This document shows, piece by piece, positions 9,199 through 28,588 of a stretch of DNA of 57,323 nt. Positions within the stretch are counted from its first letter, which is position 1, and every line of letters starts with the position of its first letter. Below the pieces are notes generated by a model. That model was not told the origin of the DNA. It made no database searches and saw only the letters and a list, made by a program, of their open reading frames with translations. The stretch is from Bacillota bacterium (lineage in GTDB: Bacteria > Sysuimicrobiota > Sysuimicrobiia > Sysuimicrobiales > Segetimicrobiaceae). The stretch is from NCBI GenBank assembly GCA_021324295.1, contig JAJPJJ010000078.1, forward strand, positions 1 to 57,323, in the 5' to 3' direction. The position numbers and the translations under genes were made by a program.

Positions 9199-9217
9199 CC
9201 CGCGCCGAGGCGGTTCC

Positions 9218-10537: not shown

Positions 10538-10620
10538 GCGGCGGGCATACAGGGGCGCCTGCGGACGTTCTCCCGAGGAGTGGCTCGCCGAGAGGCGCGC
10601 CGGGCCGGAAGGAGACGCGC

Positions 10621-11349: not shown

Positions 11350-12034
11350 GGAGCGCACGGTCCTGGTGATCGGAGCCCACCCCGACGACGTGGAGATCGG
11401 GATGGGCGGCGCGATCGTCCGGCTCGTGCAGCAGGGCCACCGGGTCGCGATCCTGGACCTCACGAACGGCGAGCCGACGCCGATGGGCTCGCCCGAGCGC
11501 CGACGGGAGGAGGGCGAGGCCGCGGCGCGGATCCTGGGCGTCGCGCGCCGCATCACGCTGCCGCTGCCCAATCGCTACCTCGAGGACACCGTGGAGAACC
11601 GGGTGGCGGTCGCGGAGGTGATCCGCGAGGTCCGGCCGGATCTGCTGTTCGTCCCGTACTGGGTGGACGCGCACCCGGACCACGTCGCCGCGTCCCACCT
11701 CGCCGAGGCCGCCCGGTTCTACGCCAAGCTGACCAAGACCGAGATGCGAGGCGAGCCCCACTATCCGGCCCGGATCCTGCACTTCTTCTGTACGCACTAC
11801 CGGCTGCACGTCGAGCCGTCGTTCGTGCTCGACGTGAGCGAGCAGATGGAGCGCAAGATCGAGGCGGTGGCCTGCTACCGCTCCCAGTTCAACGAGACGC
11901 GCGGCAACCTCGGGATCCTGGACACGATCCGGACGGTCGGCCAGTACTGGGGCTCGCGCATCCGGCGTCCCTACGGGGAGCCGTTCGCCAGCCGGGAGGC
12001 GATCGGGCTCCGCGGCATCGGGGAGCTGGTGTGA
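11342..12034 (+). CDS. bshB1: PIG-L/LmbE deacetylase, BshB1-like
   Basis: The 230-aa product has the zinc motif GAHPDDVEIGMGG at the N-terminus and the second metal site HPDHVAASHL, both typical of N-acetylglucosaminyl deacetylases. The C-terminal segment with FVLDVSEQMERKIEAV and YRSQF followed by an aromatic/Arg-rich end is the pattern of BshB1, which deacetylates GlcNAc-malate in bacillithiol synthesis. The next gene is a distant BshC-like protein, which supports the call, but bshA is not seen. It overlaps the preceding glycosyltransferase by 8 bases. Confidence 0.88.
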   Translation: MAEERTVLVIGAHPDDVEIGMGGAIVRLVQQGHRVAILDLTNGEPTPMGSPERRREEGEAAARILGVARRITLPLPNRYLEDTVENRVAVAEVIREVRPDLLFVPYWVDAHPDHVAASHLAEAARFYAKLTKTEMRGEPHYPARILHFFCTHYRLHVEPSFVLDVSEQMERKIEAVACYRSQFNETRGNLGILDTIRTVGQYWGSRIRRPYGEPFASREAIGLRGIGELV

Positions 12035-12056
12035 GCGCATCCGGCGGGAGCGCCCG

Positions 12057-13646
12057 ATGAGGTGTGAGTCGCCGCCGCGGGAGGCGGCGTACACGGTCCC
12101 GGAGCGCTCCGGGGAGGTCCTGATCGTCCCTCCCCCCGCGTGCATCCCCGACCTCCTGGCGGCCGCCCGACGCGAGACGTGGGAGGACGCCGACGTGCTC
12201 GGCACGCCGCTCGCCGCGTTCCGGCGGCGCGCGCGGCAGCGTGCGCTCGCGCTCGCGGCGCGGTACACCGGCGCGGAGCCGCCGTCCCCCGACCGCCCGC
12301 TCATCGTGATGGGCCACCAGCCGGTGTTCTTCCACCCGGGCGTGTGGGTCAAGTACTTCCTCCTCACGCGCCTCTGCGCCGCGCACGGCGCGACGGGCCT
12401 CCACCTCATCGTCGATACGGACGCGCCCGGCCCCGTGGGCGCCGACGTGCCCACCGGCCGCACGCGGCTCGACCGCGTCCGGGAGACCCTGCTCGATCTC
12501 CCGGAAGACGTGCCGCTCGAGGCCGCGTCGCTCCCGGCGCCCGAGGCCTGGGCGGCGTGGACCGACCGGCTGCGGGACCACCTCGCGTCCCTATCGTCGC
12601 CCGGCCCCGCGCGCTGCCTCGAGGCGTTCGCCTCCGGGGAGCCGGTCGCGCGGCGGGGAGCGCGCACGCTCGGGGAGTTCCTCGGCCGCCTGCGCCGTGC
12701 CTACGAGGCGCGCGCCGGCGCCCCCCGCTACCTCGAGCTGCCGGTGTCGGCGCTCGCCGACACCCCGGAGTTCCGGGAGTTCGCCCTCCACCTCCTCCGG
12801 TCACCGGACGAGACGCTGCGCGTGTACAACGCGAGCCTGGAGGCGTACCGGCGGGCGCACCGGGTCCGCTCGGCGGCGAACCCGTTTCCCAACCTCTCCC
12901 AGGGCTGCGGTCGCATCGAGGCGCCGTTCTGGGTCCTGCGCGGCGCCCGACGGACCGAGCTGTTCGTGGCGCGCGAGGATGACCGGCTCGTCCTCGCGTC
13001 TCAGGCCGAACCGCTCGCGACCGTCCCGGCCGGAGCGGCGGGCGCCGGGGCGCTCGCCCAGGCGGGCGTGTCGCTGCGCCCGAAGGCGATGGCGCTCACC
13101 CTGTTTGCCCGCCTGTGCCTGGGCGACCTCTTCATCCACGGCGTGGGGGGCGGGCGGTACGATCGGGTGACCGACGCGATCTCCGAGGGGGTGTTCGGGT
13201 GTCGACCGGCGCCGTACCTGGTCACGACCGCCACCCTGCACCTCGCGCTGCCCGAGGAGGCCCGCGCGGCCGGCGAGCGGCCCGCGCTCGAGCAGCGACT
13301 CATGGAATTGCGCCACAACCCCGACCGGCACCTCACCGACCTCTCCGAGGCACAGCGGCGCCTCGTCGGCGAGAAGTGGGCGCTCATCCGGGAGCTCGAC
13401 GGGATGCGGCCCGGGCCGGCACGCCGCGCGGCCGCGCGGCGGATCCGCGAGATCAACCGTGAGCTCGCCGCGCCGCTCGCGCCGGAGATCGCGCGCATCG
13501 AGACCACCCTGGCGGCTCTCCGGGGTCAGAAGGACGTGGAGGACGTCGTCCGGTACCGCGAGTATCCGTTCTTCCTGTTCGACCCGCCCGCGGTCGCCGC
13601 GCTCGCCGCCGCGCCGGGGGACGGCACCGCGCCGCGTGGCGGCTGA
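12057..13646 (+). CDS. Divergent BshC-like protein (putative cysteine-adding enzyme)
   Basis: This 529-aa protein is not a clear match to any family I can name with confidence. The region VMGHQPVFFHPGVWVKYFL resembles the TGQQ...GGPLYTLYK substrate-binding segment of BshC, and the later SLRPKAMALTLFARLCLGDL followed by FIHGVGGGRYD is laid out like the RP...GGPGE segment of BshC. The C-terminus has a coiled helical stretch (about 400-490) ending in YREYPFFLFDP. Its place right after bshB1 (22-base gap) favours a role in bacillithiol or a related thiol. A different function in the same pathway is possible. Confidence 0.65.
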   Translation: MRCESPPREAAYTVPERSGEVLIVPPPACIPDLLAAARRETWEDADVLGTPLAAFRRRARQRALALAARYTGAEPPSPDRPLIVMGHQPVFFHPGVWVKYFLLTRLCAAHGATGLHLIVDTDAPGPVGADVPTGRTRLDRVRETLLDLPEDVPLEAASLPAPEAWAAWTDRLRDHLASLSSPGPARCLEAFASGEPVARRGARTLGEFLGRLRRAYEARAGAPRYLELPVSALADTPEFREFALHLLRSPDETLRVYNASLEAYRRAHRVRSAANPFPNLSQGCGRIEAPFWVLRGARRTELFVAREDDRLVLASQAEPLATVPAGAAGAGALAQAGVSLRPKAMALTLFARLCLGDLFIHGVGGGRYDRVTDAISEGVFGCRPAPYLVTTATLHLALPEEARAAGERPALEQRLMELRHNPDRHLTDLSEAQRRLVGEKWALIRELDGMRPGPARRAAARRIREINRELAAPLAPEIARIETTLAALRGQKDVEDVVRYREYPFFLFDPPAVAALAAAPGDGTAPRGG

Positions 13647-13690
13647 CGCCCCCGGTGGACAGAGGGCGCAGCCGGACGCCGGGAGGCCCG

Positions 13691-14512
13691 ATGGACCGCT
13701 GGCCCGTCCCCACGGGCGCCCACGATCCCGACGGCGAGGGCGGGGCGCGAGGGGCCTCCGTCGTCGCCGAAGACGTCTGGCGGGCGTTCGGCCGGGCGCG
13801 CGTGCTCCGCGGTGCCCGCCTGGAGGCGCCCCCGGGGTCCGGGATCGCGATCCTGGGCCCCAACGGCGCCGGCAAGTCGACGCTGCTCCGCGTGCTCGCC
13901 GCCCTGCTGCGTCCACAGCGCGGGCGGGTGTGGATCTGCGGAGACGACCCGTGGACCGTTCCCGCCGCGCGCCGCAACGTCGGCTTCGTCGGCCACGAGC
14001 CGATGCTGTACGGAGGGCTGAGCGTGGCCGAGAACCTGCGGCTGTTTGCCTCCCTGTACGGCCTGCCGGACGCCCGCGCCCGCGTCGAGGCGGTATGCGA
14101 CCTGCTCGGGATCGGGCGCCGGCACGAGCCGGTCCGCAGGCTCTCGCGCGGGATGCAGCAGCGCGCGGCGCTCGCCCGGGCGCTCGTGCATCGGCCCCGC
14201 GTGCTGCTCCTCGATGAGGCGCTCACCGGGCTCGATCCCGAGGCGGCGCAGCGCCTGGCGGGCTTCCTGGCCGAGTTCCGCGCCGGGGGCGGCGCGGTCG
14301 TCATGGCGACCCACAGCGCGGCCGAGGCCGTCCGCGTCGCGGACCGCGCGCACGTGCTGGCCGGCGGGCGCCTGGGCGAGGCGCAGCCGCTTGCCGGGAT
14401 GGACGCGGACGCGGTGCAGGCATGGTACGGGTGGACCGTCGCCGCGGGACCGGGCGCCGTGACACCCGCGTCCCGCGCGGGCGGGGCGGCCGATCGGGGG
14501 CCCGGGCGATGA
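13691..14512 (+). CDS. ccmA: Haem ABC exporter, ATP-binding subunit CcmA
   Basis: CcmA is the ATPase that releases holo-CcmE from CcmC/CcmD in System I cytochrome c maturation. The 273-aa protein has Walker A GPNGAGKST, signature LSRGMQQRAALARAL and Walker B VLLLDEALTGLD. I prefer ATG 13691 (GGGAGG just upstream) over an in-frame GTG at 13655. The stop overlaps the ccmB start (ATGA). An ABC ATPase alone would be ambiguous; the ccmB-F genes after it settle the role. Confidence 0.93.
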   Translation: MDRWPVPTGAHDPDGEGGARGASVVAEDVWRAFGRARVLRGARLEAPPGSGIAILGPNGAGKSTLLRVLAALLRPQRGRVWICGDDPWTVPAARRNVGFVGHEPMLYGGLSVAENLRLFASLYGLPDARARVEAVCDLLGIGRRHEPVRRLSRGMQQRAALARALVHRPRVLLLDEALTGLDPEAAQRLAGFLAEFRAGGGAVVMATHSAAEAVRVADRAHVLAGGRLGEAQPLAGMDADAVQAWYGWTVAAGPGAVTPASRAGGAADRGPGR

Positions 14513-15177
14513 ATCCGATCATCGCCCTCGTCTGGAAGGACCTCTCGATCGAGCTGCGCACCCGCGAGCTCGTGACCTCGATGAGCCTCGTCGCGTTCCT
14601 GTCCCTGGTCATCCTTGGCCTCGCCGCCCGTTCGACGCCGCCCGCGGCGTCCGGCATCACGCCGGCCGCGCTGTGGGTCACGGTGGCGTTCGCCGCGACG
14701 CTCGGGCTGGCGCGCGCGCACGCCCTCGACCACGAGCGCGAGGCCCTCCAGGGACTCCTCCTCACGCCCGTCAGCCGCAGCGCGCTGTTCGTGGCGAAGT
14801 GGGCGAGCAACCTCATCCTCGTCCTGGTGCTCGAGGCCGCGGTGCTCCTCGCCTCCACAGCGCTCATCGACCCGGGGATCGGCCGGCGCGCGTCGGTGCT
14901 GGCGCTGCCCCTCGCGCTGGGCGCGGTCGGGTTCACCGCGACGGGCACCCTCCTCGGGGCGATGACGGTGACGACCCGCCTGCGCGAGGTGCTGCTGCCG
15001 ATCCTGCTGCTGCCGCTCGCGCTGCCGGTCATCATCGTCTCGGTCGCGGCGATCGCCCGCGCCCTCGAAGGCGCGGGCGTCGCGGCCCTCGCCGGTCCGC
15101 TCAAGATGCTGGCCGCCTACGACGTCGTGTTTGCCGCGCTCGGCGTGTGGCTGTTCGCGCACGTGGTGGAGGAGTAG
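14509..15177 (+). CDS. ccmB: Haem exporter permease CcmB
   Basis: This 222-aa integral membrane protein has about six hydrophobic helices, the early motif ALVWKDLSIELRTRELV and the family segment FAATLGLARAHALDHERE followed by LQGLLLTPVSR. CcmB forms the membrane part of the CcmAB complex. It overlaps ccmA by four bases. A gap of about 190 bases follows, with its own promoter for ccmC, so the ccm genes form at least two transcription units. Confidence 0.95.
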   Translation: MNPIIALVWKDLSIELRTRELVTSMSLVAFLSLVILGLAARSTPPAASGITPAALWVTVAFAATLGLARAHALDHEREALQGLLLTPVSRSALFVAKWASNLILVLVLEAAVLLASTALIDPGIGRRASVLALPLALGAVGFTATGTLLGAMTVTTRLREVLLPILLLPLALPVIIVSVAAIARALEGAGVAALAGPLKMLAAYDVVFAALGVWLFAHVVEE

Positions 15178-15300
15178 GCGAAGGCGCGTGTAACGAACCC
15201 GCGGCGCGCCCGCCGGCGCAGCCGGGCCGCGCAGACGATCGGGCGAGATCCGCCGGCGCCGGGATCAGGGGTGGGGTCGTGAGCCCGCCGGCGCGCTTCG

Positions 15301-15329
15301 TTGAAAGCACCGGGGGGGTTTGTTATCAT
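15301..15329 (+). promoter_or_regulatory. Sigma-70-type promoter of ccmC
   Basis: TTGAAA (15301-15306), a 17-base spacer and TATCAT (15324-15329) form a near-consensus promoter. Transcription would start near 15336, about 34 bases before the ccmC GTG. The TTG of the -35 box is in frame with ccmC but cannot be its start, because it would not be transcribed. Confidence 0.82.
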
Positions 15330-15369
15330 CGTCGTGACTTCATGTGCCTCGCGCACCAGGAGCGTGAAC

Positions 15370-16041
15370 GTGCGCCGATCTCCGGATGGCCCCCTGGCCG
15401 GGGCGCTCCTTGTCGCCATGCTCCTCGCCCTGTACGGCGCGTTCGTCTACGCGCAGACCGAGCGCGTCATGGGCGACATCCAGCGCATCTTCTACGTGCA
15501 CCTGCCGCTCGCGTGGGTCGGGTTCGTCGCGTTTGGGCACGCGGCGTGGGGAGGGATCCGCTACCTCGCGACGGGACGGCGCGAGTGGGACGTGGTGAGC
15601 GCGTCCGCCGCCGAGATCGGGGTCCTCTTCGCGACGCTCGTGATCGTGACCGGGTCCCTGTGGGCGCGTCCCGTGTGGGGGACGTGGTGGACGTGGGATC
15701 CGCAGCTCGTGACCTACCTCATCCTCTGGTTCATCTACGTGGGCTACCTCGTCCTGCGGGCCGCGGCGGGCGACGACGCCCGACAGGCGCGGTTCGCGGC
15801 GGTGTTTGCGATCGCGGGCTTCGTGGACGTGCCGCTGGTGTGGCTGTCGGCGCGCTACCTGCGCGCCCTGTCCCCGGTGATCTTCACCTCGCACAGCATC
15901 GGGCTCGCGCCCTCGATGGCATGGGCCCTACTGGCCGGCCTCGTCGCCTGGAGCCTCGTGTACGTCGCGCTGGTGAGGACCCGGATCCGGCTCGGGCTGC
16001 TCGAGGTCCGGGTGCAGGCGCTGGAGGACGCGGCCGCGTAG
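15370..16041 (+). CDS. ccmC: Haem lyase/transporter CcmC
   Basis: CcmC brings haem to CcmE on the outer face of the membrane. The product (223 aa) has six membrane helices and the tryptophan-rich haem-binding motif WGTWWTWDPQL, with conserved histidines before it (YVHLPLAW) and after it (FTSHSIG). The start GTG 15370 has AGGAG seven bases upstream; GTG 15364 is an alternative but lies almost on the ribosome site. The promoter at 15301 drives it, and ccmD, ccmE and ccmF follow closely. Confidence 0.95.
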   Translation: MRRSPDGPLAGALLVAMLLALYGAFVYAQTERVMGDIQRIFYVHLPLAWVGFVAFGHAAWGGIRYLATGRREWDVVSASAAEIGVLFATLVIVTGSLWARPVWGTWWTWDPQLVTYLILWFIYVGYLVLRAAAGDDARQARFAAVFAIAGFVDVPLVWLSARYLRALSPVIFTSHSIGLAPSMAWALLAGLVAWSLVYVALVRTRIRLGLLEVRVQALEDAAA

Positions 16042-16045
16042 AGCG

Positions 16046-16258
16046 ATGACGTACCTGTTCTGGGCGTTCGCGCTCGTCTGGCTCGGGTTGTTCGCGTACC
16101 TGTACTCGCTGCTGCGCCGCAGCCAGGCGCTCGAGCGGCAGGTCTCGGAGCTCCTCGAGCGCTCCGGCGCCGTCCACGCGCCCGGCGGCACGCCGCCGGG
16201 GGAGGCTCCTGCCGGCCCGGCGGTGACGATCTCGAGGACCACCGGGGCCGGTGGATGA
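16046..16258 (+). CDS. ccmD: CcmD-family small membrane protein
   Basis: This 70-aa protein starts with one membrane helix (FWAFALVWLGLFAYLYSLL) followed by a basic/helical stretch RRSQALERQVSELLER and a Pro/Gly-rich tail. CcmD is needed for release of haem-loaded CcmE from CcmC. The family is recognised by size, topology and location between ccmC and ccmE. It begins four bases after ccmC ends and overlaps the ccmE start (ATGA). Confidence 0.85.
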   Translation: MTYLFWAFALVWLGLFAYLYSLLRRSQALERQVSELLERSGAVHAPGGTPPGEAPAGPAVTISRTTGAGG

Positions 16259-16689
16259 GCGCCGTACACCCCGGGCGGGTCGGGCAGCGCCGGCACACGC
16301 TTGTCTTCGTCTGCGGGGCGGCCGCGATCGTCGTCGCGCTCGCGTATCTCGTCTACGGCGGCATCCAGCAGGGGGCCACGTACTGGGTGACCGTGGGCGA
16401 GCTCGAGCAGCGCGCGGGAGCGCTGCCGGCGCGCGTCCGGCTCGGCGGGACGGTGGCGCCGGGGTCGGTGCGCTGGGACGCATCCCACCGGCACCTCCGC
16501 TTCGCGGTCACCGACGGCGTGCACACGCTCCCGGTGGCGTATGCCGGCGTGGTCCCGGACATCTTCAGCGAGGGGCGCCAGGTCGTCGTCGAGGGGACGC
16601 TGGGGCGGGACGGGACGTTCGATGCCACGACGCTCCTCGCGAAGTGCCCGACGAAGTACACGCCGGCCGATCCGGCCTCCTCGCGGTGA
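16255..16689 (+). CDS. ccmE: Haem chaperone CcmE, CxxxY variant
   Basis: CcmE carries haem covalently from CcmC to the CcmF ligase. The 144-aa product has one N-terminal membrane anchor (about 15-35) and an OB-fold domain with VRLGGTVAPGSVRW and LRFAVTDG. The haem-binding motif is LAKCPTKY, with Cys131 where classical CcmE has the haem-binding His of HxxxY. The CxxxY form is known from archaea and some Deltaproteobacteria, where it goes with loss of CcmH (System I*). No CcmH gene is seen here, in agreement. Confidence 0.95.
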   Translation: MSAVHPGRVGQRRHTLVFVCGAAAIVVALAYLVYGGIQQGATYWVTVGELEQRAGALPARVRLGGTVAPGSVRWDASHRHLRFAVTDGVHTLPVAYAGVVPDIFSEGRQVVVEGTLGRDGTFDATTLLAKCPTKYTPADPASSR

Positions 16690-16758
16690 TCTCGAACCCT
16701 CCGTCGCTCCGTCAGCCCCACGGGAGGGCGGGCGGCGGCGTGGCCGGAGACGGTGGGC

Positions 16759-18762
16759 ATGGCTGACCTGGGTCGGTTCGCGCTGCTGGCGGCGCTTGCG
16801 CTTGCGCTGTACGCGCTCGTGGCGGGCATGCTTGCGGGACGGACGCGGCGCGCGGAGATCGCCGCGAGCGCCGGGCGCGCGCTGGGGGCGGCCGCGGCGC
16901 TGGAAGGCGTGGCCGCCGCGGTGCTGCTGGTCGCGCTCGGCACGCGGGACTACACCCTGCGCTACGTCGCCGCCCACGTGAGCAACGCGCAGCCGCTCCT
17001 CTACGATCTGACGGCGTTCTGGGGCGGCATGGAGGGCTCGTTGCTCCTGTGGGCGCTCGTCCTCAGCGGCTACACGCTCGCGGCGCTGCGGACGGTGCGC
17101 CGCCAGCGGCCGGCGCTCGTACCGGGGGTCGCGGCGGTGTGTGCGGGCACCTCCAGCTTCTTCCTGCTGCTGCTCACCACCGTGGCCTCCCCGTTTGCGA
17201 CGTCCCCGTTCCCCCCCTCCGATGGCCGCGGGATGAACCCTCTGCTCCTCAACCCCTGGATGGCGATCCACCCGCCGACGCTGTATCTGGGCTACGTGGG
17301 GCTCACGGTGCCGTTCGCCATCGTCTGCGCCGCGCTCGCCAGTGGCGGGCACGACGACGCCGGCGTCCTCGTCGCGCGCCGGTGGCTGCTGTGGGCGTGG
17401 TACTGCCTCAGCATGGGCCTCTGGTTCGGCGCGAAGTGGTCCTACGTCGTGCTGGGGTGGGGCGGGTACTGGGCGTGGGATCCGGTGGAGAACGCGGCCC
17501 TCATGCCGTGGCTCGTCGCGACGGCGTTCATCCACTCCGTGATGATCCAGGAGCGCCGCGAGATGCTGACGCGGTGGAACGTCGTGCTGGTGATCCTCGC
17601 CTTTGGCCTCTCGATCTTCGGGACGTTTCTCACGCGCAGCGGCGTGCTCAGCAGCATCCACTCCTTTACCCAGTCGCCGCTCGGCGCCTACTTCCTTACG
17701 TTCCTCGCGCTGGCGCTGCTCGTCGGGTTCGGCCTCGCCGCCTGGCGCTGGGACCGGCTCCGCAGCCGCCACGAGCTGGACGCGGCGCTCTCGCGCGAGA
17801 GCGCGTTCGTCCTCAACAACGTCCTCTTCCTCGCCGCCGCGTTCGCGGTCTTCCTGGGCACCGTGTTCCCGGTGGTCTCCGAGGCCCTGGGGGGACGGGC
17901 GATCAACGTGGGGCCGCCGTTCTTCGACCATGTGGTCGTCCCGCTCGCCCTCGGGATCCTGCTGCTCATGGGCGTGGGGCCGCTCCTCGCCTGGCGGCGC
18001 GCCTCCCTCGACCACCTGCACCGGCAGTTTCTCGCGCCGGGCGCCGCGGGCGTGCTGGCGGGGGCGGGCCTGCTGGGCGCGGGCGTACGGCCGGCGGGCG
18101 CGGCGCTGGCGTTTGCGCTCTGTGCGTTCGTCGCGGCGACCATCGCGCTGGAGTTCGCCCGCGGCGTCCGGGTACGGCGGGCGCACCGGGGCGAGAGCGC
18201 GGTGTGGGCGCTCGGGGCGCTCGTGCTGCGCAACCGCCGGCGGTACGGCGGGGACATCGTCCACCTCGGCATGCTGCTGCTCGCCTGCGGGATCATCGGG
18301 TCGTCGGCGTTCGCGACCCAGCGCCTCGCGACGCTCGCGCCCGGGCAGGACGCGGCGATCGGCGAGTACCGGGTGCGGTTCGATGGCCTCGCGCAGGAGA
18401 CCCGGGGCGGCGCGCTGTCGATCATCGGGCGCCTGCGCGTGTTCGCGGGCACCCGCGACCTCGGCGCCTTCGAGGCCCGCCGCAACCTGTTCCTCCGGAG
18501 CCAGGACGCGACGACCGACGTGGCGCTGCGCAGCACGCCGCGGGACGACCTGTACGTGATCCTCGCCGGGTGGACCGCCGACGGCCGCGCCACGCTGCGC
18601 CTGCTCGTGAACCCGATGATGATGTGGATCTGGGCCGGAGGCCTCGTGCTCACCGCGGGCGCCGTGATCGCGATGCTGCCCGAGCGTCGGGCGGCGCCCC
18701 AGGTCGCGGTGCCCGCGCCCGGGGTCAGCGCTGGCGGCGCCTGGAGCCCGGGCGGGCTGTGA
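16759..18762 (+). CDS. ccmF: Cytochrome c haem ligase subunit CcmF
   Basis: CcmF attaches haem from CcmE to the CXXCH cysteines of apocytochrome c. The product is 667 aa with many membrane helices and the WWD domain GWGGYWAWDPVENA. Further signatures are NPWMAIHPPTLYLGY and TFLTRSGVLSSIHSF. ATG 16759 is chosen, with GGAG nine bases upstream; a GTG two codons earlier is possible. Its stop overlaps the GTG of the next short gene. In System I* CcmF is thought to work without CcmH, so it may take over thiol handling here. Confidence 0.96.
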   Translation: MADLGRFALLAALALALYALVAGMLAGRTRRAEIAASAGRALGAAAALEGVAAAVLLVALGTRDYTLRYVAAHVSNAQPLLYDLTAFWGGMEGSLLLWALVLSGYTLAALRTVRRQRPALVPGVAAVCAGTSSFFLLLLTTVASPFATSPFPPSDGRGMNPLLLNPWMAIHPPTLYLGYVGLTVPFAIVCAALASGGHDDAGVLVARRWLLWAWYCLSMGLWFGAKWSYVVLGWGGYWAWDPVENAALMPWLVATAFIHSVMIQERREMLTRWNVVLVILAFGLSIFGTFLTRSGVLSSIHSFTQSPLGAYFLTFLALALLVGFGLAAWRWDRLRSRHELDAALSRESAFVLNNVLFLAAAFAVFLGTVFPVVSEALGGRAINVGPPFFDHVVVPLALGILLLMGVGPLLAWRRASLDHLHRQFLAPGAAGVLAGAGLLGAGVRPAGAALAFALCAFVAATIALEFARGVRVRRAHRGESAVWALGALVLRNRRRYGGDIVHLGMLLLACGIIGSSAFATQRLATLAPGQDAAIGEYRVRFDGLAQETRGGALSIIGRLRVFAGTRDLGAFEARRNLFLRSQDATTDVALRSTPRDDLYVILAGWTADGRATLRLLVNPMMMWIWAGGLVLTAGAVIAMLPERRAAPQVAVPAPGVSAGGAWSPGGL

Positions 18763-20215: not shown

Positions 20216-20389
20216 TGGATGGCGCGACTGCCGACGGGGGACGCGGCGGTCCCCCTCTCGGCGCCGGCCGGATCGCGGCACCGGAGCGCCGATCCAGCCG
20301 GGCGGCGCGCGGCAAAGGGAGGAGAGCCGGTCGACGCCGTGGAAGGAGAAACCCCCGTGCGCTTCGCCCCGGTGAAGGAGAGATCCCGC

Positions 20390-21346
20390 ATGCTGCGACG
20401 ATGCACCCGGCCTGCCGTTCCCCCGCGCGGGGGCGCGGAGGCGGCGGCGAGGTGCCGGCACGCGTCCGCATCGCCGGTCGCGCCGGCGCGGGCGCGCGCG
20501 GCGCTCGCGTGCGTGCTCGTGCTCGCCGCGGCCCTGGCCACGGCCGGGTGCCAGCCCAGCGTGAGCGTCACCGGGGCGCTGGTGGACCGGCGCCTGCCGC
20601 CGCCGCAGCAGGTGGAGATCCAGCTCGTCACGGACGAAGACAACCGCCCGATCACCCCGGACGCGATCAAGGGCAAGCAGGTCTTCGACGCCAACTGCGC
20701 GGTCTGCCACGGCACGACCGGGCGGGGGAACGGGCCGATGGCGCCCACGCTCGTCGCGCCGCAGAAGGACGTGCTGACGGTGTTCATGGCGCTGTTTGGG
20801 ATCCAGATCCACGAGCCTCCGCTGCCGAGCCATCCGGCCGATTTCCACAACCGCGACCTGGAGAACGTCATCTCGCCCGCGGAGATGTACCAGACCGTCA
20901 CCGAGGGCCGCCCCCACACCGCGATGCCGGCCTTCGGGCCGCAGGCGTCGTTCGGCGCGAACAAGGCCCAGACGCTCACCAACGCGGATCGGTGGGACGC
21001 GAACGCCTACGAGCTGTCCCTGCGCGCCACCCCGCAGAGCCTCAGCGCCGCCAAGGCGCTGTACAACCAGCAGTGCGCGGTCTGCCACGGGGTGAACGGC
21101 GACGGCAAGGGGCCCCGGGGCCCGGAGATGGCGGCGCGCGTGTGGTCGTGGTCGCGCGGCGAGGGGCCGGGCATCTTCACCGATATCAACTACATCGTGC
21201 AGCGAAACCCGAGCGAGCTCATGAACGCGATCCTGGACGGGCACGGCCTGATGCCGGGGTACCGCGGCAAGCTCTCGCCGGAGCAGCTCAACGGGCTTGT
21301 CGACTACATCTACACGTTCTTCTACAAGCACCCCCCGATCCGGTAG
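20390..21346 (+). CDS. Dihaem c-type cytochrome lipoprotein
   Basis: The 318-aa product has a lipobox LATAGC (Cys54) after a hydrophobic segment, so it is probably lipid-anchored on the outer face. Two CXXCH sites, NCAVCHGTTGRGNG (Cys103-His107) and QCAVCHGVNGDGKG (Cys229-His233), define two cytochrome c domains; candidate Met ligands lie in TAMPAFG and LMPGYRG. GAAGGAGAG lies eight bases before ATG 20390. A second good pair (GGAAGGAGAA and GTG 20357) would add 11 residues before the same signal. It precedes the Rieske gene by about 165 bases and is the natural high-potential acceptor for it. Confidence 0.92.
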   Translation: MLRRCTRPAVPPRGGAEAAARCRHASASPVAPARARAALACVLVLAAALATAGCQPSVSVTGALVDRRLPPPQQVEIQLVTDEDNRPITPDAIKGKQVFDANCAVCHGTTGRGNGPMAPTLVAPQKDVLTVFMALFGIQIHEPPLPSHPADFHNRDLENVISPAEMYQTVTEGRPHTAMPAFGPQASFGANKAQTLTNADRWDANAYELSLRATPQSLSAAKALYNQQCAVCHGVNGDGKGPRGPEMAARVWSWSRGEGPGIFTDINYIVQRNPSELMNAILDGHGLMPGYRGKLSPEQLNGLVDYIYTFFYKHPPIR

Positions 21347-21512: not shown

Positions 21513-22211
21513 ATGACGTTCGACCGGCGGAGGCTGCTGCAGGCGCTCACCGCGATCCCCGTGGTCGGGGGGGTCATCGCCATTCTCTCGCCGCTGTTCC
21601 GGTACCTCAAGCCCAACGACAAGCCGTGGCAGATCTTCACCGTCGCCCCGGACGCCCCCGCGGGGGGGGCGCAGATCGTCGGGACGACGCGATCGCTCGC
21701 GAAGCCGTGGGACTATTTCTACTTCACGTACGTGCAGAAGTTCGTCCAGTACGACCCGACCGGGTTCAAGGCGTCCAACATCCCGGGGGTCGCGATCCGG
21801 CTGCCCAGGAAGGTGAGGTTCGCCAACTCGCAGGGGTTCGTCGGCTATCGGGGCGAGACCGACATCGTGCTCTTCCAGCGAATCTGTCCCCACCTGGGCT
21901 GCATCTTCAACTACGAGCCCGACTGGCACAACGTCACCGCGGGGTACGGCGGGTTCACGCCGCCGGCGTTCGAGCGGCACGCCCTCATGGCGTGCCCGTG
22001 CCACTTCAGCATCTACGATCCGGAGTACCCGGCCGACCCCGGCAACGTGATCTCCGGGCCCGCGCCCCGGGGCGCACGGTACTTCGAGTTCCACATCGAC
22101 GGCGAGAACATCGTCGTGACCGGGGCCGAGCTCGGCGGGATCGCCCGCATCGAGCCGGCGGACGCCGCCCCGCCGGCGCGTGGCGGCGAGCACACACGCG
22201 CGCCATCCTGA
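21513..22211 (+). CDS. Rieske 2Fe-2S protein
   Basis: This is the high-potential iron-sulfur subunit of a bc-type complex, moving one electron from quinol to cytochrome c. The 232-aa product has an N-terminal anchor (about 9-30) preceded by DRRRLLQ, a weak Tat-type signal. The cluster site is CPHLGC (Cys125, His127, Cys130) and CPCHFS (Cys161, Cys163, His164), which keeps both cluster ligands and the disulfide pair. An insert of about 30 residues separates the halves. GGGAGGGG precedes the ATG. The cytochrome b gene starts 34 bases downstream. Confidence 0.95.
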   Translation: MTFDRRRLLQALTAIPVVGGVIAILSPLFRYLKPNDKPWQIFTVAPDAPAGGAQIVGTTRSLAKPWDYFYFTYVQKFVQYDPTGFKASNIPGVAIRLPRKVRFANSQGFVGYRGETDIVLFQRICPHLGCIFNYEPDWHNVTAGYGGFTPPAFERHALMACPCHFSIYDPEYPADPGNVISGPAPRGARYFEFHIDGENIVVTGAELGGIARIEPADAAPPARGGEHTRAPS

Positions 22212-22245
22212 GCGTCACCGGACGCGGAGGGCCGGAGGGAGAGCC

Positions 22246-23415
22246 GTGGAGGCCGTGCTGAGCAACCTCAAGGAGTGGCTCCGGGACCGCAAGGAGCACC
22301 TGGACCTCTTCGACGAGACGAAGACCGCCAGACAGGACAACCCCCTCTACATCGTGGGGGGGCTGGTCTGGTTGTCGTGGATGATCGTGATCGTCTCGGG
22401 CGTGATCCTGATGCTGTGGTACATCCCGACGACGACCGCCGCGTACCGCTCGATCGAGCACATCACCCTGGACATCCCGTTCGGCTGGCTGGTGCGCGGG
22501 ATGCACAAGTACGGCGCGGACATGCTGATCACGTGCATCACCCTGCGCATCTACCGGATGTACTTCGCCGGGGAGTACAAGAAGCCGGGCGAGCTGTCGT
22601 GGATGATCCTCTTCGCCTCGCTCGTCCTCGCGATGATCTCCGGGATCACCGGGTACCTGCTGATCTGGAACCAGCGGGCGTTCTGGGCGGCGAAGGTCGT
22701 GCTCACGGTGCCGACGTACTACGACGAGATCCCCGTGCTCGGCAACCTCGGCCTCGGCCGGGCGATCGCGTTCATCTTCCTCGGCGGCCCGGCGGTCGGC
22801 CAGGCCGCGATCACGCGGTTCTACGCGATCCACTTCGGGATCTCCGCGGTGTTCGCGATCCTCGCGGAGATCTTCTTCTACCGGACACGGCGCCGCCGCC
22901 TCAACCTCTCGCCGCTCGCCATCGGGCTCGTGCTGGGCTTCCTGGCGTTCGTGAGCTTCGACCGCCTGACGGAGATGGGGCGGTGGGCCAACCCGAACCG
23001 CACGCCGCTGCCGATCCTCTCGGACTGGTACTTTCTCGCGCTCTACCAGCTCGTGAAGTACATGCCGCCGCTGTGGGCCGGCATCGCCCCGGCCCTGCTG
23101 ATCGGCTACGGGATGCTCGTCCCGTTCATGGACCGGACCCGGGAGACCCGGCCGCTCGAGCGGCCGTTCTTCTTCGTCGTGGGGCTGCTCGCCCTCTTCT
23201 ACTTCATCGTGTTCACCGCGCTCATCATGCTGAACATCGCCGTGATCAGCCGCGACCCGCCGATCATCCTGGGGGTGACGTTCGTCGTGCTGGCGCTCGC
23301 GTTCGTCTGGGAGATCGCCCACCGGCGCCGCAAGGCCCAGCGGGCGGCGCAGCCTGCCCCGCGGGCGGTGCCCGCCCGGCCGGCCCCGGCGCCGCGGCCG
23401 GCGCAGGCCGGGTGA
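22246..23415 (+). CDS. Cytochrome b, full-length type, n-side haem ligands missing
   Basis: The 389-aa product is a cytochrome b with about eight membrane helices. Helix B has His87 (RGMHKYGADM) and helix D has His196 (TRFYAIHFG), the pair for the p-side haem. The partners expected 14-15 residues later are Arg101 (TLRIYRMYFAGEYKKP) and Phe210/Phe211, so the n-side haem should not bind in the usual way. The quinol-site PEWY motif reads SDWY (259-262), with Asp in place of Glu. The segment around YKKPGELSW aligns well with cytochrome b6, so the register is firm. GTG 22246 is preceded by GGAGGGAG. A basic, Ala/Pro-rich tail ends the protein. Confidence 0.9.
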   Translation: MEAVLSNLKEWLRDRKEHLDLFDETKTARQDNPLYIVGGLVWLSWMIVIVSGVILMLWYIPTTTAAYRSIEHITLDIPFGWLVRGMHKYGADMLITCITLRIYRMYFAGEYKKPGELSWMILFASLVLAMISGITGYLLIWNQRAFWAAKVVLTVPTYYDEIPVLGNLGLGRAIAFIFLGGPAVGQAAITRFYAIHFGISAVFAILAEIFFYRTRRRRLNLSPLAIGLVLGFLAFVSFDRLTEMGRWANPNRTPLPILSDWYFLALYQLVKYMPPLWAGIAPALLIGYGMLVPFMDRTRETRPLERPFFFVVGLLALFYFIVFTALIMLNIAVISRDPPIILGVTFVVLALAFVWEIAHRRRKAQRAAQPAPRAVPARPAPAPRPAQAG

Positions 23416-23419
23416 GCCG

Positions 23420-23761
23420 ATGCGGCGAAAGGCGCTCTTCTACGTGCTGCTGGCCGCCGCGACGGTGTCGCTCAGCCAGCTCCTCGCCGCGTGGCGGGCG
23501 TGGCGCGCCGCGGCGACGCTCGAGGGCGGCGCAACCGTCGCGGCGTACGCGCTGGCCGTCCTGGCGGCGCTGCTCTGGCTGGGGTTCATCCTGTACGAGG
23601 TGGACCGGGCGGCCGGCCGCGTCCGCCACCGGGTGGCGCTCTACGAGTGGGTGCTGACGGTGCGCCGCCCGCCGGAGCGGCGCACGGGGACGGCGGGGCG
23701 CGGCGGGGGCGAGTGGACGTGGCGCGATGAGGCGCGGGAGGCGGGGCAGCGGCATGGGTGA
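23420..23761 (+). CDS. Small two-helix membrane protein of the cytochrome b cluster
   Basis: I do not recognise this 113-aa protein. It has two predicted membrane helices (LFYVLLAAATVSLSQLLAAW and AAYALAVLAALLWLGFILYE), followed by an arginine-rich segment of about 45 residues that should be cytoplasmic. There are no haem or metal motifs. It starts five bases after the cytochrome b stop and overlaps the next small gene by 8 bases, so it is surely in the operon. An accessory subunit of the complex is the simplest reading. Confidence 0.75.
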   Translation: MRRKALFYVLLAAATVSLSQLLAAWRAWRAAATLEGGATVAAYALAVLAALLWLGFILYEVDRAAGRVRHRVALYEWVLTVRRPPERRTGTAGRGGGEWTWRDEAREAGQRHG

Positions 23762-23948
23762 CCGCGCGGCGGCGTACGGGGCGGGGATCGTGCTCCTCGC
23801 GCTCCTCAGCCTCCTCTGCGTCATCGGGATCGTCTGGGGGGAGCTGACCGGCCACCGCCTCGTCACCGGGGCGCTCGTCGGCGTGGTGTTGCTCGCCTAC
23901 TCCTTTGTCCTGCTGTTCCTGCGCAAGGGAGGGTTCACGGGTGTATAA
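23754..23948 (+). CDS. Small two-helix membrane protein, 64 aa
   Basis: The product consists almost entirely of two hydrophobic helices (GIVLLALLSLLCVIGIVWGE and LVTGALVGVVLLAYSFVLLF) with a short polar turn GHR and a Lys/Gly end. Start ATG 23754 overlaps the previous gene by 8 bases, and its stop overlaps the GTG of the cytochrome b-ferredoxin gene by 8 bases. It has no named family that I can see. Position and size suggest a structural subunit like the small helices of b6f or bc1 complexes. Confidence 0.72.
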   Translation: MGDRAAAYGAGIVLLALLSLLCVIGIVWGELTGHRLVTGALVGVVLLAYSFVLLFLRKGGFTGV

Positions 23949-25104
23949 GCGGCTGCTGCGCCGGCTCCTCGGCTGGACGCTCGCGCTCGACGTGTGGGTC
24001 AACCGCGTCTATCCGGCCGACTTCAACCCCCTGTACTACACCGGCGGGCTGTCCAACCTGTTCCTCACGATCCTCGTGCTCTCGGGGATCTTCCTGTTCT
24101 TCTACTACGTGCCGTCGTTCAACGACGCGTACACGTCGGTCCAGTTCATCACGGCCGAGGTGCCGTACGGCCAGATCATTCGCGGGATCCACCGCTATGC
24201 GGCGGACGGCTTCATCATCGCAATCCTGCTCCACTTCTTCCGGAACTGGTTCACGGAGCGGTTCCGCTTCTCCCGCGACGAGCCGTGGATCAGCGGGATG
24301 ATGCTCCTGGTGTTCGCGGGGTTCATCGGCGTGACCGGGTACGTGCTGGTGTGGGACCAGCGCAGCGCGCTGCTGGTGGCGATGACCGGCAACTCGCTGG
24401 CGTCGATCCCGCTGGTCGGCGGCTGGCTGCGCTCCGCGCTGTTCGGCGGGACCGGGCTCACCAACCTGCTGCTGCCCCGGATGCTGTACCTGCACATCGG
24501 CCCGGCGGTCTTCCTCTACATCCTGCTGTGGTGGCACTACGTGCGCATCCGCCACCCCAAGGTCTGGCCGCCCGCCGTCTGGACCCTCTTCGCGCTCGGG
24601 ATCGTCATGCTCTTGGCCGGCGTGCTGCCGGTGACCAGCCAGCCGCCGGCGTCGGCGCTCTCCACGCCGGGCCGCCTGGCGGTGGATTGGTTCTTCCTGC
24701 TGCCGTACGTGGGTCTCAAGTACCTGCCGCCGCTCGGGCTGATCCTCGTCGGCGCGGTCATCGTCGCGTACGGGCTGTACATTCCCTATCAGCTCCCGGA
24801 GACGGAGACGGAGCTCGGGATCCGGGACTCGGGGGTCGCGCAGGTCATCGACGCCAACTGCACCGGCTGCGAGCTGTGCTACTACGACTGCCCCTACGAT
24901 GCCATCGTGATGGTGCCGAGTCCACATCCCGGCGTCACGAAGGCCGCACAGGCGCGCAAGCTCCTGGCTGTGGTCCTCGAGTCACGCTGCGTCGAGTGCG
25001 GCATCTGCATCGGGGCGTGCCCGTTCGAGGCGCTCGAGCTGCCGCGCTACCTCGAGCGGGACATCCACGAGAAGGTGTTGAGCGCATGCCGAAGCGAGAC
25101 GTGA
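23941..25104 (+). CDS. Cytochrome b fused to a 2x[4Fe-4S] ferredoxin domain
   Basis: The 387-aa protein begins as a cytochrome b. Helix B has His84 and His98 (IHRYAADGFIIAILLHFF) and helix D has His185 and His199 (YLHIGPAVFLYILLWWH), so both b haems can bind. The quinol-site motif is VDWF (248-251). After helix F (GLILVGAVIVAYGLYIPY) the usual last helices are missing. A ferredoxin domain follows, with Cys307/310/313/317 (NCTGCELCYYDCPYD) and Cys350/353/356/360 (RCVECGICIGACPFE). Six helices place this domain in the cytoplasm. GTG 23941 has AGGGAGGG upstream. The MvhD-family gene follows after 16 bases. Confidence 0.93.
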   Translation: MYKRLLRRLLGWTLALDVWVNRVYPADFNPLYYTGGLSNLFLTILVLSGIFLFFYYVPSFNDAYTSVQFITAEVPYGQIIRGIHRYAADGFIIAILLHFFRNWFTERFRFSRDEPWISGMMLLVFAGFIGVTGYVLVWDQRSALLVAMTGNSLASIPLVGGWLRSALFGGTGLTNLLLPRMLYLHIGPAVFLYILLWWHYVRIRHPKVWPPAVWTLFALGIVMLLAGVLPVTSQPPASALSTPGRLAVDWFFLLPYVGLKYLPPLGLILVGAVIVAYGLYIPYQLPETETELGIRDSGVAQVIDANCTGCELCYYDCPYDAIVMVPSPHPGVTKAAQARKLLAVVLESRCVECGICIGACPFEALELPRYLERDIHEKVLSACRSET

Positions 25105-25120: not shown

Positions 25121-25660
25121 ATGACCGCGGACGCGCGGCGGCCCAGGATCGTCGGGTTCCTCTGCGACTACGCGGTGAGCCGCGAGGGGATCGTCCGCGA
25201 GGACGGCACGATGCGGGATCTCCCCAACGTGACGCTGATCCAGGTGCCGTGCTCGGGGTTCGTCCGGCCCGCGTGGCTCGAGTTCGCCCTGCGGAACGGC
25301 GCGGAGGGCGCGTTCGTCTGCGGGTGCCCGCTGGGAGACTGCTTCAACCGCCTGGGCAATAACCTGATTGGGGACCGGGTGGCGCAGATGCGGCGCCGGC
25401 TCGAGCGGCAGAAGATCCACCCCGATCGCGTGGCGACGATCTACCACGGCCTCCACGAGCAGGCCGAGTTCGTGGCCGCGGTCCGCGCGTTCAGCGAGCG
25501 CGTCGCGGCCCTGCCCGGCCCTGTCGTGCCCGCGCCGAGGACGGCGGCGGCGCGGCCGCCCGCGAGCCCCACCCGGTCGCCGGGGACCGGCGTGACGGGC
25601 GGCGCGCCCGGCCCGGCCGCCGGCCCGGGCGCGCCGCCGGGCGAACAGGAGGGAGGATGA
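25121..25660 (+). CDS. MvhD/FlpD-family iron-sulfur electron-transfer subunit
   Basis: The family links [NiFe]-hydrogenase or formate dehydrogenase to HdrA in electron-bifurcating complexes. The first 120 of 179 residues match it: PRIVGFLCDY, VPCSGFVRP, and EGAFVCGCPLGDCFNRLGN. Cysteines are at 15, 44, 67, 69 and 74. The usual second cysteine of the N-terminal FCCxWC motif is replaced (CDYA), so the 2Fe-2S site may differ. The last 50 residues are a Pro/Ala/Gly-rich tail. No hydrogenase or Hdr gene is in the window; its neighbour is the ferredoxin-fused cytochrome b, the likely partner. Confidence 0.88.
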   Translation: MTADARRPRIVGFLCDYAVSREGIVREDGTMRDLPNVTLIQVPCSGFVRPAWLEFALRNGAEGAFVCGCPLGDCFNRLGNNLIGDRVAQMRRRLERQKIHPDRVATIYHGLHEQAEFVAAVRAFSERVAALPGPVVPAPRTAAARPPASPTRSPGTGVTGGAPGPAAGPGAPPGEQEGG

Positions 25661-25861: not shown

Positions 25862-26884
25862 ATGGACCTCGACCTCATCTACGCTCCGGTGCGCGACGAC
25901 CTCGCCGCGCTGGAGCGGTTCCTGCGCGAGGAGCTCTCCTCCGACGACCCCTTCATCGGCGAGCTCGTCACCCATGTCCTGACGACGCAGGGCAAGATGA
26001 TCCGCCCGGCGCTCGTCTGCCTGAGCGCGCTCGCGTGCGGCGGCCGGGAGGCGGCGCGGCGCACGGCCCGGGGCTCCGGGCAGGGCGACGAGGCATCCGC
26101 GCGGCTGGGGATCGCGGGCGCCGTGGAGCTCATCCACATCGCATCGCTGATCCACGACGACGTCATCGACGCCGCCGACGTCCGCCGCGGGCACGCGTCC
26201 GTGAACGCGGTGTGGGGCAACCAGGTGGCGGTCCTCCTGGGCGACTACCTCTTCAGCAAGGCATTTCACATCCTGGCCCGCCTGCGCCAGCACGAGATCA
26301 GCGCGGCGGTGGCCTGGGCGACGGTCCGCATGAGCCAGGCCGAGATCAAGCAGATCAAGTACGGGAACACCCCGCACACGAGCGAGACGATCTACTTCGA
26401 TATCATCGAGGGCAAGACGGCGCAGCTCATGAGCGCGGCCTGCCGGTGCGGGGCCCTTACCGCGGGCGCACCGGAGGAGGACGCGGCGGCGCTGTCGAGA
26501 TTCGGGCTGGAGTGGGGCATGGCGTTTCAGATCACCGACGACGCCCTCGATCTCACGGCCACCGCCGATCACCTGGGCAAGCCGATCGGCAGCGACATCC
26601 AGACCGGCAAAGTGACGCTGCCGATCATCCACGCCCTCGTGCACTCCCCGGAGGAGGATCGACGGCGGCTCGAGGAGATCCTGGTGCGCGCCGACGGGGA
26701 CCACGCCGGCTGCGTCGAGGACGTGCAGGAGATCCTCGCGCGCTGCGGCGCGATCGACCACGCGCTCGAGGTGGCGCGCTCGCGCGCCCGGAGCGCGGCC
26801 GCGGCGCTCGCCGCGCTCCGGCGCTCGCCGGCCCGCGAGAGCCTGCTGGCGCTCGTGGAGTTCGTCACCGCGCGCCAGCGGTAG
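25862..26884 (+). CDS. Polyprenyl diphosphate synthase (trans-type)
   Basis: It makes the long isoprenoid side chain, most likely of menaquinone given the neighbouring quinol-oxidising complex. The 340-aa protein has the first aspartate-rich motif LIHDDVID, the lysine/arginine site QGKMIRPAL, GDYLFSKAF and the second aspartate motif FQITDDALD. Chain length cannot be read from sequence alone with confidence. ATG 25862 lies 31 bases after the preceding small gene. An insertion of about 15 residues (ARRTARGSGQGDEASAR) before the first motif is unusual. Confidence 0.92.
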   Translation: MDLDLIYAPVRDDLAALERFLREELSSDDPFIGELVTHVLTTQGKMIRPALVCLSALACGGREAARRTARGSGQGDEASARLGIAGAVELIHIASLIHDDVIDAADVRRGHASVNAVWGNQVAVLLGDYLFSKAFHILARLRQHEISAAVAWATVRMSQAEIKQIKYGNTPHTSETIYFDIIEGKTAQLMSAACRCGALTAGAPEEDAAALSRFGLEWGMAFQITDDALDLTATADHLGKPIGSDIQTGKVTLPIIHALVHSPEEDRRRLEEILVRADGDHAGCVEDVQEILARCGAIDHALEVARSRARSAAAALAALRRSPARESLLALVEFVTARQR

Positions 26885-27534: not shown

Positions 27535-27870
27535 CGCCGGGGGACCCGGGCCCGTGACCCGGGTATCGCGGCGTGGCCGCACGGCTTGGGAGCTGAAGCG
27601 GCCTGTCTGCGTGCGTTGGGGGCCCGGGCCTGTGACCCGAGGTATCGTGACGTGGGCAAGCGGCCTTGGACTTGAAGCGAGCTGCCTCCGCGCGCTGGGG
27701 GCCCGGGCCTGTGACCCGGGTATCGTGACGTGGGCAAGCGGCCTTGGACTTGAAACGAGCTGCCTCCGTGCGCTGGGGGCCCGGGCCTGTGACCCGAGGC
27801 ATCGTGACGTGGGCAAGCGGCCTTGGACTTGAAGCGAGCTGCCTCCGTGCGCTGGGGGCCCGGGCCTGTA
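27535..27870. repeat. Tandem array of 78/79-bp units, block 1
   Basis: CCCGGG centres occur at 27545, 27623, 27702, 27780 and 27859, so the period is 78 or 79 bases. Each unit is centred on GGCCCGGGCC and continues with GTGACCC, then ATCGTGACGTGGGCAAGC, then CTTGGACTTGAAGCGAGCT. The first unit is more diverged and the last is cut off where the DUF4321 gene begins. One-base length changes alternate between units, so no frame stays open for functional reasons. No unique spacers occur. Confidence 0.9.
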
Positions 27871-27888
27871 AGTCGCGGGAGGGGAGCG

Positions 27889-28158
27889 GTGGCCAGGGAG
27901 GCCAAGCGGGCGCGAGAGCCGTGGTGGGTGCTCATCGTCATCGTCGTCGCTGGAGCGATGCTGGGCAGCGTCTTCGCCGATGCGGTCGGCGACTTCACCT
28001 ATCTGGCGCCGCTCGCTCGCTCGGTGGCCTTCGGCATCAATCCGCCGATCACGCTGGACCTGCACGTGCTCACCCTCACGCTCGGGTTCACCGTGCGGTT
28101 GAACCTTTCTATCGTCCTTGGTATAATGGCCGCGATTTACCTGTTCCGCGTGCTGTAG
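27889..28158 (+). CDS. DUF4321 family small membrane protein
   Basis: The 89-aa product has an N-terminal helix (WWVLIVIVVAGAMLGSVFAD) and a second half with SVAFGINPPITLDLHVLTLT and LNLSIVLGIMAAIYLF. This is the pattern of DUF4321, found next to radC/mreB in Firmicutes-like genomes. Function is unknown. GTG 27889 follows GGGAGGGGAG; an upstream in-frame ATG at 27823 lies inside the repeat array and is rejected. The gene is bracketed by the two repeat blocks, and its last 60 bases carry a promoter. Confidence 0.88.
   Translation: MAREAKRAREPWWVLIVIVVAGAMLGSVFADAVGDFTYLAPLARSVAFGINPPITLDLHVLTLTLGFTVRLNLSIVLGIMAAIYLFRVL
28099..28127 (+). promoter_or_regulatory. Near-consensus promoter inside the DUF4321 3' end
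   Basis: TTGAAC (28099-28104), a 17-base spacer and TATAAT (28122-28127) with an extended TGG at 28119-28121. This is one of the two best sigma-70-type promoters in the window. It would start near 28134 and read through the second repeat block toward radC, whose ATG is about 455 bases away. Confidence 0.82.
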
Positions 28159-28284
28159 CGATGGGCGCACGCGGCCAGGCGTCGAGGGGGTGGGGTGGCG
28201 CGCCCGCAGAGCCGCGCCGGCCTCGCCCCATTGCTGTCCATGAGCGGTGTCGCGGCGAGGCGGCAGCGGAGTTGACGCGGCCTG

Positions 28285-28470
28285 CCCCGGGTGCGTTGGG
28301 GACCCGGGCCTGTAACACGGGCCTCGCGACGCCGGGAGACGGCAGTGGAAGCGACGTGTCGTGGTCCGGCCGCTGGGGGCCCGGGCCTGTGAGCCGGGTA
28401 TCGCGGCGTGGGCGCACGGCTTTGGAATTGAAGCGGCCTGCCTCCGTGCGCTGGGGGCCCGGGCCTTTAG
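28285..28470. repeat. Tandem array of 77-78-bp units, block 2
   Basis: CCCGGG centres at 28303, 28380 and 28458 continue the family seen before the DUF4321 gene. Units here are more diverged (GTAACACGGGCCTCGCGACG, GTGAGCCGGGTATCGCGGCG). The stretch 28159-28588 otherwise holds no gene. The array ends in an AT-richer patch at 28470-28500. Confidence 0.85.
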
Positions 28471-28588
28471 CCTTAGGTCCAGATTTCGATATAGCTACAC
28501 CCGCCGGCGTGGCCGCCGGTTCGAAGTGAGCAACGGCCGATCGGGGGCAGCCCTGACGCAGGTCCCCAACCCAGTCCGGCGACAACGG

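Follow-up and report, generated by a model that had tools for sequence, protein, structure and literature searches.

A conserved Rieske/cytochrome b gene cluster with a cytochrome b-ferredoxin fusion and a second cytochrome b lacking n-side haem ligands, which may send electrons into the cell

We analyzed a 57,323-nucleotide stretch of DNA (the window) from a genome of the uncultured phylum Sysuimicrobiota (CSP1-3; assembly GCA_021324295.1, contig JAJPJJ010000078.1). The window contains a cluster encoding, in this order, a dihaem cytochrome c, a Rieske protein, a cytochrome b that we call cytb1, two small membrane proteins (A and B), a cytochrome b-ferredoxin fusion (cyt b-Fd), an MvhD/FlpD-like protein (MvhD), and a polyprenyl diphosphate synthase (Table 1). 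This order recurs at the loci of relatives, the exceptions being losses at contig ends and small proteins A and B, which are not always detected. A slightly longer piece containing small protein B gave no accepted Pfam match, and Pfam and NCBIfam scans identified no flavoprotein or FAD/NAD(P) oxidoreductase among the cluster genes. Upstream of the cluster (7972-18762), the window carries genes for the supply of haem and cytochrome c, encoding ALAD (HemB), a class-III aminotransferase, an ABC ATPase, and CcmF. Between the polyprenyl synthase gene and radC (27536-28531) lie GC-rich direct repeats of approximately 78 nucleotides, with a 32-nucleotide core present seven times.

Table 1. Features of the cluster, in window coordinates.
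Feature	Position	Strand	Remarks
Dihaem cytochrome c	20219..21346	+	two CAVCH motifs; one TM anchor
Rieske protein	21513..22211	+	CPHLGC and CPCHFSIYD; Pfam 0.0037 (weak, below cut-off); NCBIfam 2e-8; motif conserved in relatives
Second cytochrome b, cytb1	22180..23415	+	start not certain; ligands for one haem; Qo-motif position reads SDWY
Small membrane protein A	23420..23761	+	no family match; tblastn matches in some relatives
Small membrane protein B	23754..23948	+	two TM helices; overlaps both flanking genes; start placed from sequence
Cytochrome b-ferredoxin fusion, cyt b-Fd	23941..25104	+	387 aa; GTG start; six TM helices, four haem His, 2x[4Fe-4S]
cyt b-Fd haem-ligand His (H84, H98, H185, H199)	24190..24537	+	codons from 24190, 24232, 24493, 24535
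cyt b-Fd ferredoxin cysteines, Cys307 to Cys360	24859..25020	+	two CxxCxxCxxxCP motifs
MvhD/FlpD-like [2Fe-2S] protein	25121..25660	+	dedicated partner; PF02662 3.2e-23
Polyprenyl diphosphate synthase	25862..26884	+	conserved downstream neighbour

In cyt b-Fd, a cytochrome b occupying the first ≈290 residues is joined to a 2x[4Fe-4S] ferredoxin in the last ≈85, with positions 24841-25104 encoding residues 301-387 of 387. Pfam matches, numbered on an open reading frame that begins 12 codons upstream of the gene start, were Cytochrome_B (1.4e-31; residues 35-216) followed by Fer4_21 (8e-10) and Fer4_7 (5.7e-9) at residues 309-376. The original prediction, made from the letters alone, had placed eight cysteines in two CxxCxxCxxxCP motifs within 30 residues; the motifs are indeed there (Cys307/310/313/317 and Cys350/353/356/360), but they span 54 residues (307-360).

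Structural models place six transmembrane helices in cyt b-Fd, at residues 30-53, 77-104, 114-137, 177-201, 212-228, and 264-284. This is the number first proposed, and the even count leaves that proposal standing. Its structural match to bc1 cytochrome b is confined to residues 25-295 (Z 22-27 across 260-269 residues); residues 25-312 of the 380 in 7o37_C, for instance, match with a Z of 26.1 and an rmsd of 2.8 over 260 aligned residues. Because the model has six helices and the best matches stop at helix F of bc1 cytochrome b, helices G and H are absent, as had been claimed. The ferredoxin is modeled at a pLDDT of only about 35-60 in both AlphaFold2 models (built from 23 and 57 sequences), and the 22-residue linker before it (285-306) is of low confidence in both. 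The Foldseek matches listed mostly span residues 25-295 and include no ferredoxin-fold row, which is uninformative given the low confidence of that domain.

Lysine and arginine are more frequent on the predicted n-side loops in 57/57 cyt b-Fd homologues (mean 11.8 versus 5.4), and by this positive-inside count the N terminus is predicted to lie inside and the ferredoxin to face the cytoplasm. All four haem histidines are present in the same 57 rows, consistent with two bis-His haems, so that the predicted topology sets the cytoplasmic ferredoxin beside the n-side haem. The original prediction thus had the topology right and the surroundings incomplete, and its interpretation is partly supported. 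Seven of the eight ferredoxin cysteines are invariant in all 57 rows, and Cys313 is kept in 56. Since these cysteines and the haem histidines are nearly or fully invariant, the fusion is not a product of chance or of an assembly join; it is real and conserved. The exception at Cys313 is locus L006 (1501-2655, minus strand), where a serine replaces this third cysteine in a single metagenome-assembled genome (MAG), possibly through sequencing error. His205, six residues past the n-side ligand, is near-invariant in the 23-row alignment and lost in a second, more distant group described below, and the Qo-motif position holds variants around a conserved aspartate. Both alignments represent part of the available loci, with one locus per phylum genome; several rows begin at the BLAST match and lack the 12 N-terminal residues, and the 57-row alignment leaves out L085, whose frame is split in three pieces, and L070, L071, L098, and L099, which encode the same or very similar proteins.

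The other cytochrome b of the cluster, cytb1, keeps the p-side histidines (codons at 22504 and 22831) and has arginine (22546) and phenylalanine (22873) in place of the n-side pair; PDB cytochrome b6, when aligned, has histidine at both of these n-side positions. Among relatives, His89 and His198 on the p side are kept in all 32 rows that cover both (27 distinct proteins), and the helix-B n-side position is Arg103 in those 32. The helix-D n-side position is F, Y, L, W, or M in 33/33 rows and never histidine, with no histidine at +13 to +15. Glu210 (codon at 22867) is invariant in 33/33. These counts leave out rows below 45% identity and two fragments that do not cover helix B (L047, which covers part of helix D, and L062), and they come from loci (L032-L067) that partly repeat genomes, 34 rows representing 29 distinct proteins. 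The Rieske-side cytochrome b thus does not have the ligands for two bis-His haems; judged by its ligands, cytb1 is a mono-haem protein with p-side ligands only. The same genome also encodes a canonical Rieske/cytochrome b complex (L118, contig G000:C98, 3452-5230), whose cytochrome b has a C-terminal cytochrome c fusion and a PEWY motif, versus SDWY in cytb1. Because this canonical protein keeps all four haem histidines, the n-side ligand loss is specific to cytb1.

The Rieske protein shows both cluster-binding boxes, CxHxGC and CxCH, in the window and in 30/30 relative rows, with the serine and tyrosine of box 2 kept in 29/30. These two residues are among the features linked to high potential in PMC12954380. 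Rieske counts across the phylum are not used here, since this is a broad family whose cut-off the Rieske protein of the window does not reach. Searches for quinone pathways found MqnA/D matches in 3/43 phylum genomes and none in that of the window organism, and MenD above the cut-off in 17/43; in the window organism, the MenD-like matches all fall below the cut-off.

The MvhD protein scores 82.5 bits against PF02662, well above the curated cut-off of 22.3, and its gene lies directly downstream of cyt b-Fd in 37/37 genomes when coordinates are compared by eye. Cysteines 15, 44, 69, and 74 are kept in the phylum and the second group alike. The second cysteine of the N-terminal CxxC of 5odc is missing in both, being alanine or serine in separate MvhD rows and a residue other than cysteine in the fused versions displayed. 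We considered whether MvhD might belong to a soluble heterodisulfide reductase (Hdr/Mvh) and rejected this as the general case because the cyt b-Fd-adjacent copy is the sole FlpD in 31/37 genomes; the CCG domain (PF02754) is present in all 43 phylum genomes and hence uninformative. Four genomes of one genus (G008-G011), which have no cyt b-Fd, each carry three FlpD proteins, two of them high-scoring. At locus L055, a CcoN-like haem-copper oxidase subunit (7577-8989; TIGR00780 2.3e-37, below cut-off) directly follows MvhD.

Matches to cyt b-Fd above 420 bits occur in 37/43 phylum genomes, the protein being missing from G004, G008-G011, and G019. In G004, a cytochrome b match near a contig start has 32% identity, within the range of cytb1 elsewhere. 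Relatives at 56-80% identity include MAGs labelled Terrabacteria group ANGP1 and Armatimonadetes. The second group, picked up by the same scan at ≈30-35% identity, comprises 18 loci, of which 16 are labelled Deltaproteobacteria; in 17 of these 18 loci, a continuous frame encodes cyt b-Fd and MvhD as a single polypeptide. This fusion was found in 11/297 sampled genomes of the group's phylum, and because the genome scan used ferredoxin peptide patterns, distant relatives may have been missed. At L068, genes for a COX2-like protein (just below the Pfam cut-off), COX1, and SCO1 precede the fusion; this Pfam assignment covers L068, and the oxidase-gene neighbourhoods of L078, L084, L111, L112, and L114 resemble it by eye. 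L110 has only an SCO-like gene beside the fusion, and at L115 no oxidase genes are visible. The unit stands without cytb1 or Rieske alongside at L068, L078, and L084, and no Rieske protein was detected in 5/12 second-group genomes with the fusion, so it does not require a bifurcating partner everywhere.

In three second-group loci (L112, 7738-9801; L113, 7339-9372; L115, 3651-5738), fusions of 677-695 residues extend beyond MvhD: a basic stretch leads into a single hydrophobic segment, and an additional domain comes last, a layout that also fits a cytoplasmic MvhD. This extra membrane segment and domain form a separate gene of 173-217 residues in L068, L111, and L114, and the L068 copy matched no accepted Pfam family.

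The cluster is a variant within the Rieske/cytochrome b kind. It resembles bc1 and b6f complexes in its Rieske protein, its dihaem cytochrome c, the A-F fold of cytochrome b, and perhaps the SDWY that cytb1 has at the Qo-motif position. It differs in having two dissimilar cytochromes b, cytb1 without n-side haem ligands and cyt b-Fd with a ferredoxin instead of helices G and H, and in its dedicated MvhD. The ferredoxin followed by MvhD is colinear with residues 572-769 of HdrA2, to which the second group aligns as one stretch. Unlike in HdrA2, this module is joined to a cytochrome b and not to the FAD-binding HdrA part; matches are confined to the ferredoxin (569-641) and MvhD (644-771) parts. 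A ferredoxin-MvhD-type module is also carried by QmoB, in a complex that has a NarI/HdrE-type cytochrome b, whereas cytb1 and cyt b-Fd both belong to PF00033. For the Rieske/cytochrome b complexes of Kuenenia stuttgartiensis (Kuste4569-4573 and Kustd1480-1485), PMC12954380 proposes that the low-potential quinol electron reaches cytoplasmic Fe-S clusters; there, four [4/3Fe4S] clusters belong to a separate FAD/NAD(P) oxidoreductase that forms the output, and the models are homodimers with a haem cN. Here, the clusters are instead fused to the second cytochrome b, and the Pfam and NCBIfam scans found no oxidoreductase of the Kuenenia type in the cluster. The engineered asymmetric bc1 dimers of PMC4330944 are also similar, in that one half has no working n-side haem and electrons exit via the bL-bL bridge, but these are point mutants whose n-side acceptor is still quinone. 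Searches of the open-licence PMC literature yielded no report of a cytochrome b combined with ferredoxin or MvhD, or of haem bH loss, and the accessible portion of the Sysuimicrobiota paper (PMC11604079) makes no mention of cytochrome or Rieske.

Starting from what can be read in the sequences, namely the cluster, the ligand loss in cytb1, the ligand retention in cyt b-Fd, the predicted topology, and the pairing with MvhD, we regard as the best explanation, held with middling confidence, an asymmetric Rieske/cytochrome b complex that passes the low-potential electron to the cyt b-Fd haems, the ferredoxin, and MvhD. The quinol-oxidising site would be carried by cytb1, from which the first electron would go via Rieske to the dihaem cytochrome c and the second would enter the p-side haem. 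Having no n-side haem, cytb1 would have to hand this electron sideways, to the p-side haem of cyt b-Fd in a heterodimer. Within cyt b-Fd, it would then travel from the p-side to the n-side haem, the fused ferredoxin, and MvhD, which would pass it to a cytoplasmic acceptor. We infer the heterodimer, the transfers between subunits and from haem to cluster, and the outward direction to the cytoplasm; the path from n-side haem to MvhD is suggested by the fusion, the topology, and the strict pairing, and a heterodimer with p-side haem crossing is the simplest reading. In bc1, a crossing of this type is fast enough; in engineered dimers made asymmetric by H212N in one half, transfer between the two haems bL, which lie 14 Å apart edge to edge, is relevant to catalysis (PMC4330944). 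The conserved serine and tyrosine of Rieske box 2 would suit a high-potential Rieske protein and so favor outward flow, by the argument in PMC12954380. The second group's fusion, colinear with the HdrA2 stretch, also counts in favor of this explanation. Against this explanation count the absence of a flavoprotein or NAD(P) protein from the cluster in the Pfam and NCBIfam scans, the module's presence in second-group genomes with no detected Rieske protein, and His205, which could belong to a quinone-reducing n-site. A high-potential quinone, if present, would also mean that low-potential reduction needs more drive.

The genomes with no detected Rieske protein leave room for electrons to enter rather than exit through MvhD. 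A cytoplasmic dehydrogenase or reduced ferredoxin would feed MvhD and the ferredoxin, the n-side haem of cyt b-Fd would pass the electrons to quinone, and Rieske and cytb1 would then oxidise the quinol to the benefit of cytochrome c. Entry into the respiratory chain fits the triple fusion beside oxidase genes at L068 and the 5/12 genomes in which no Rieske protein was detected, and MvhD of solved structures sits in hydrogenase assemblies. Such an input would, however, leave unexplained why cytb1 has lost its n-side ligands in every row, with cyt b-Fd as the sole outlet of its p-side haem, and we consider it somewhat unlikely.

His205 bears on another possibility, an asymmetric Q-cycle in which the electron from cytb1 would cross to cyt b-Fd and reduce quinone at an n-side site, with ferredoxin and MvhD serving as an accessory port through which cyclic or regulatory electron flow would pass. 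Both haem ligand pairs are present in all cyt b-Fd rows, and the near-invariance of His205 agrees with such a site, but the second group does not retain this histidine, and the ferredoxin cysteines and MvhD are conserved about as well as the haem ligands, which would be odd for an accessory port; this arrangement strikes us as distinctly improbable. The cluster might also encode two separate enzymes: a complex of cytb1, Rieske, and cytochrome c, and a quinone oxidoreductase in which cyt b-Fd and MvhD act on their own. Second-group loci without a neighbouring cytb1 or Rieske gene show that the latter can stand apart, yet a complex with a p-side haem b alone has no outlet for the second quinol electron, and we think this separation very unlikely.

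The asymmetric complex, if true, would be nature's parallel to the asymmetric bc1 dimers that were engineered to demonstrate inter-haem transfer (PMC4330944). Delivery of the quinol's low-potential electron to a soluble carrier by a Rieske/cytochrome b complex is an open proposal in PMC12954380, and a proposed wire that is covalently built in, together with removal of the normal exit from the Rieske-side cytochrome b, makes that question directly testable. We tentatively propose, with rather less than even confidence, a natural heterodimeric complex III in which cytb1 splits quinol, cyt b-Fd is a pure wire, and quinol oxidation by cytochrome c would drive the reduction of a low-potential cytoplasmic carrier, a quinone-based bifurcation to ferredoxin. 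In this uncultured phylum, a complex III built of cyt b-Fd and cytb1 may thus send electrons into the cell rather than back to the membrane.
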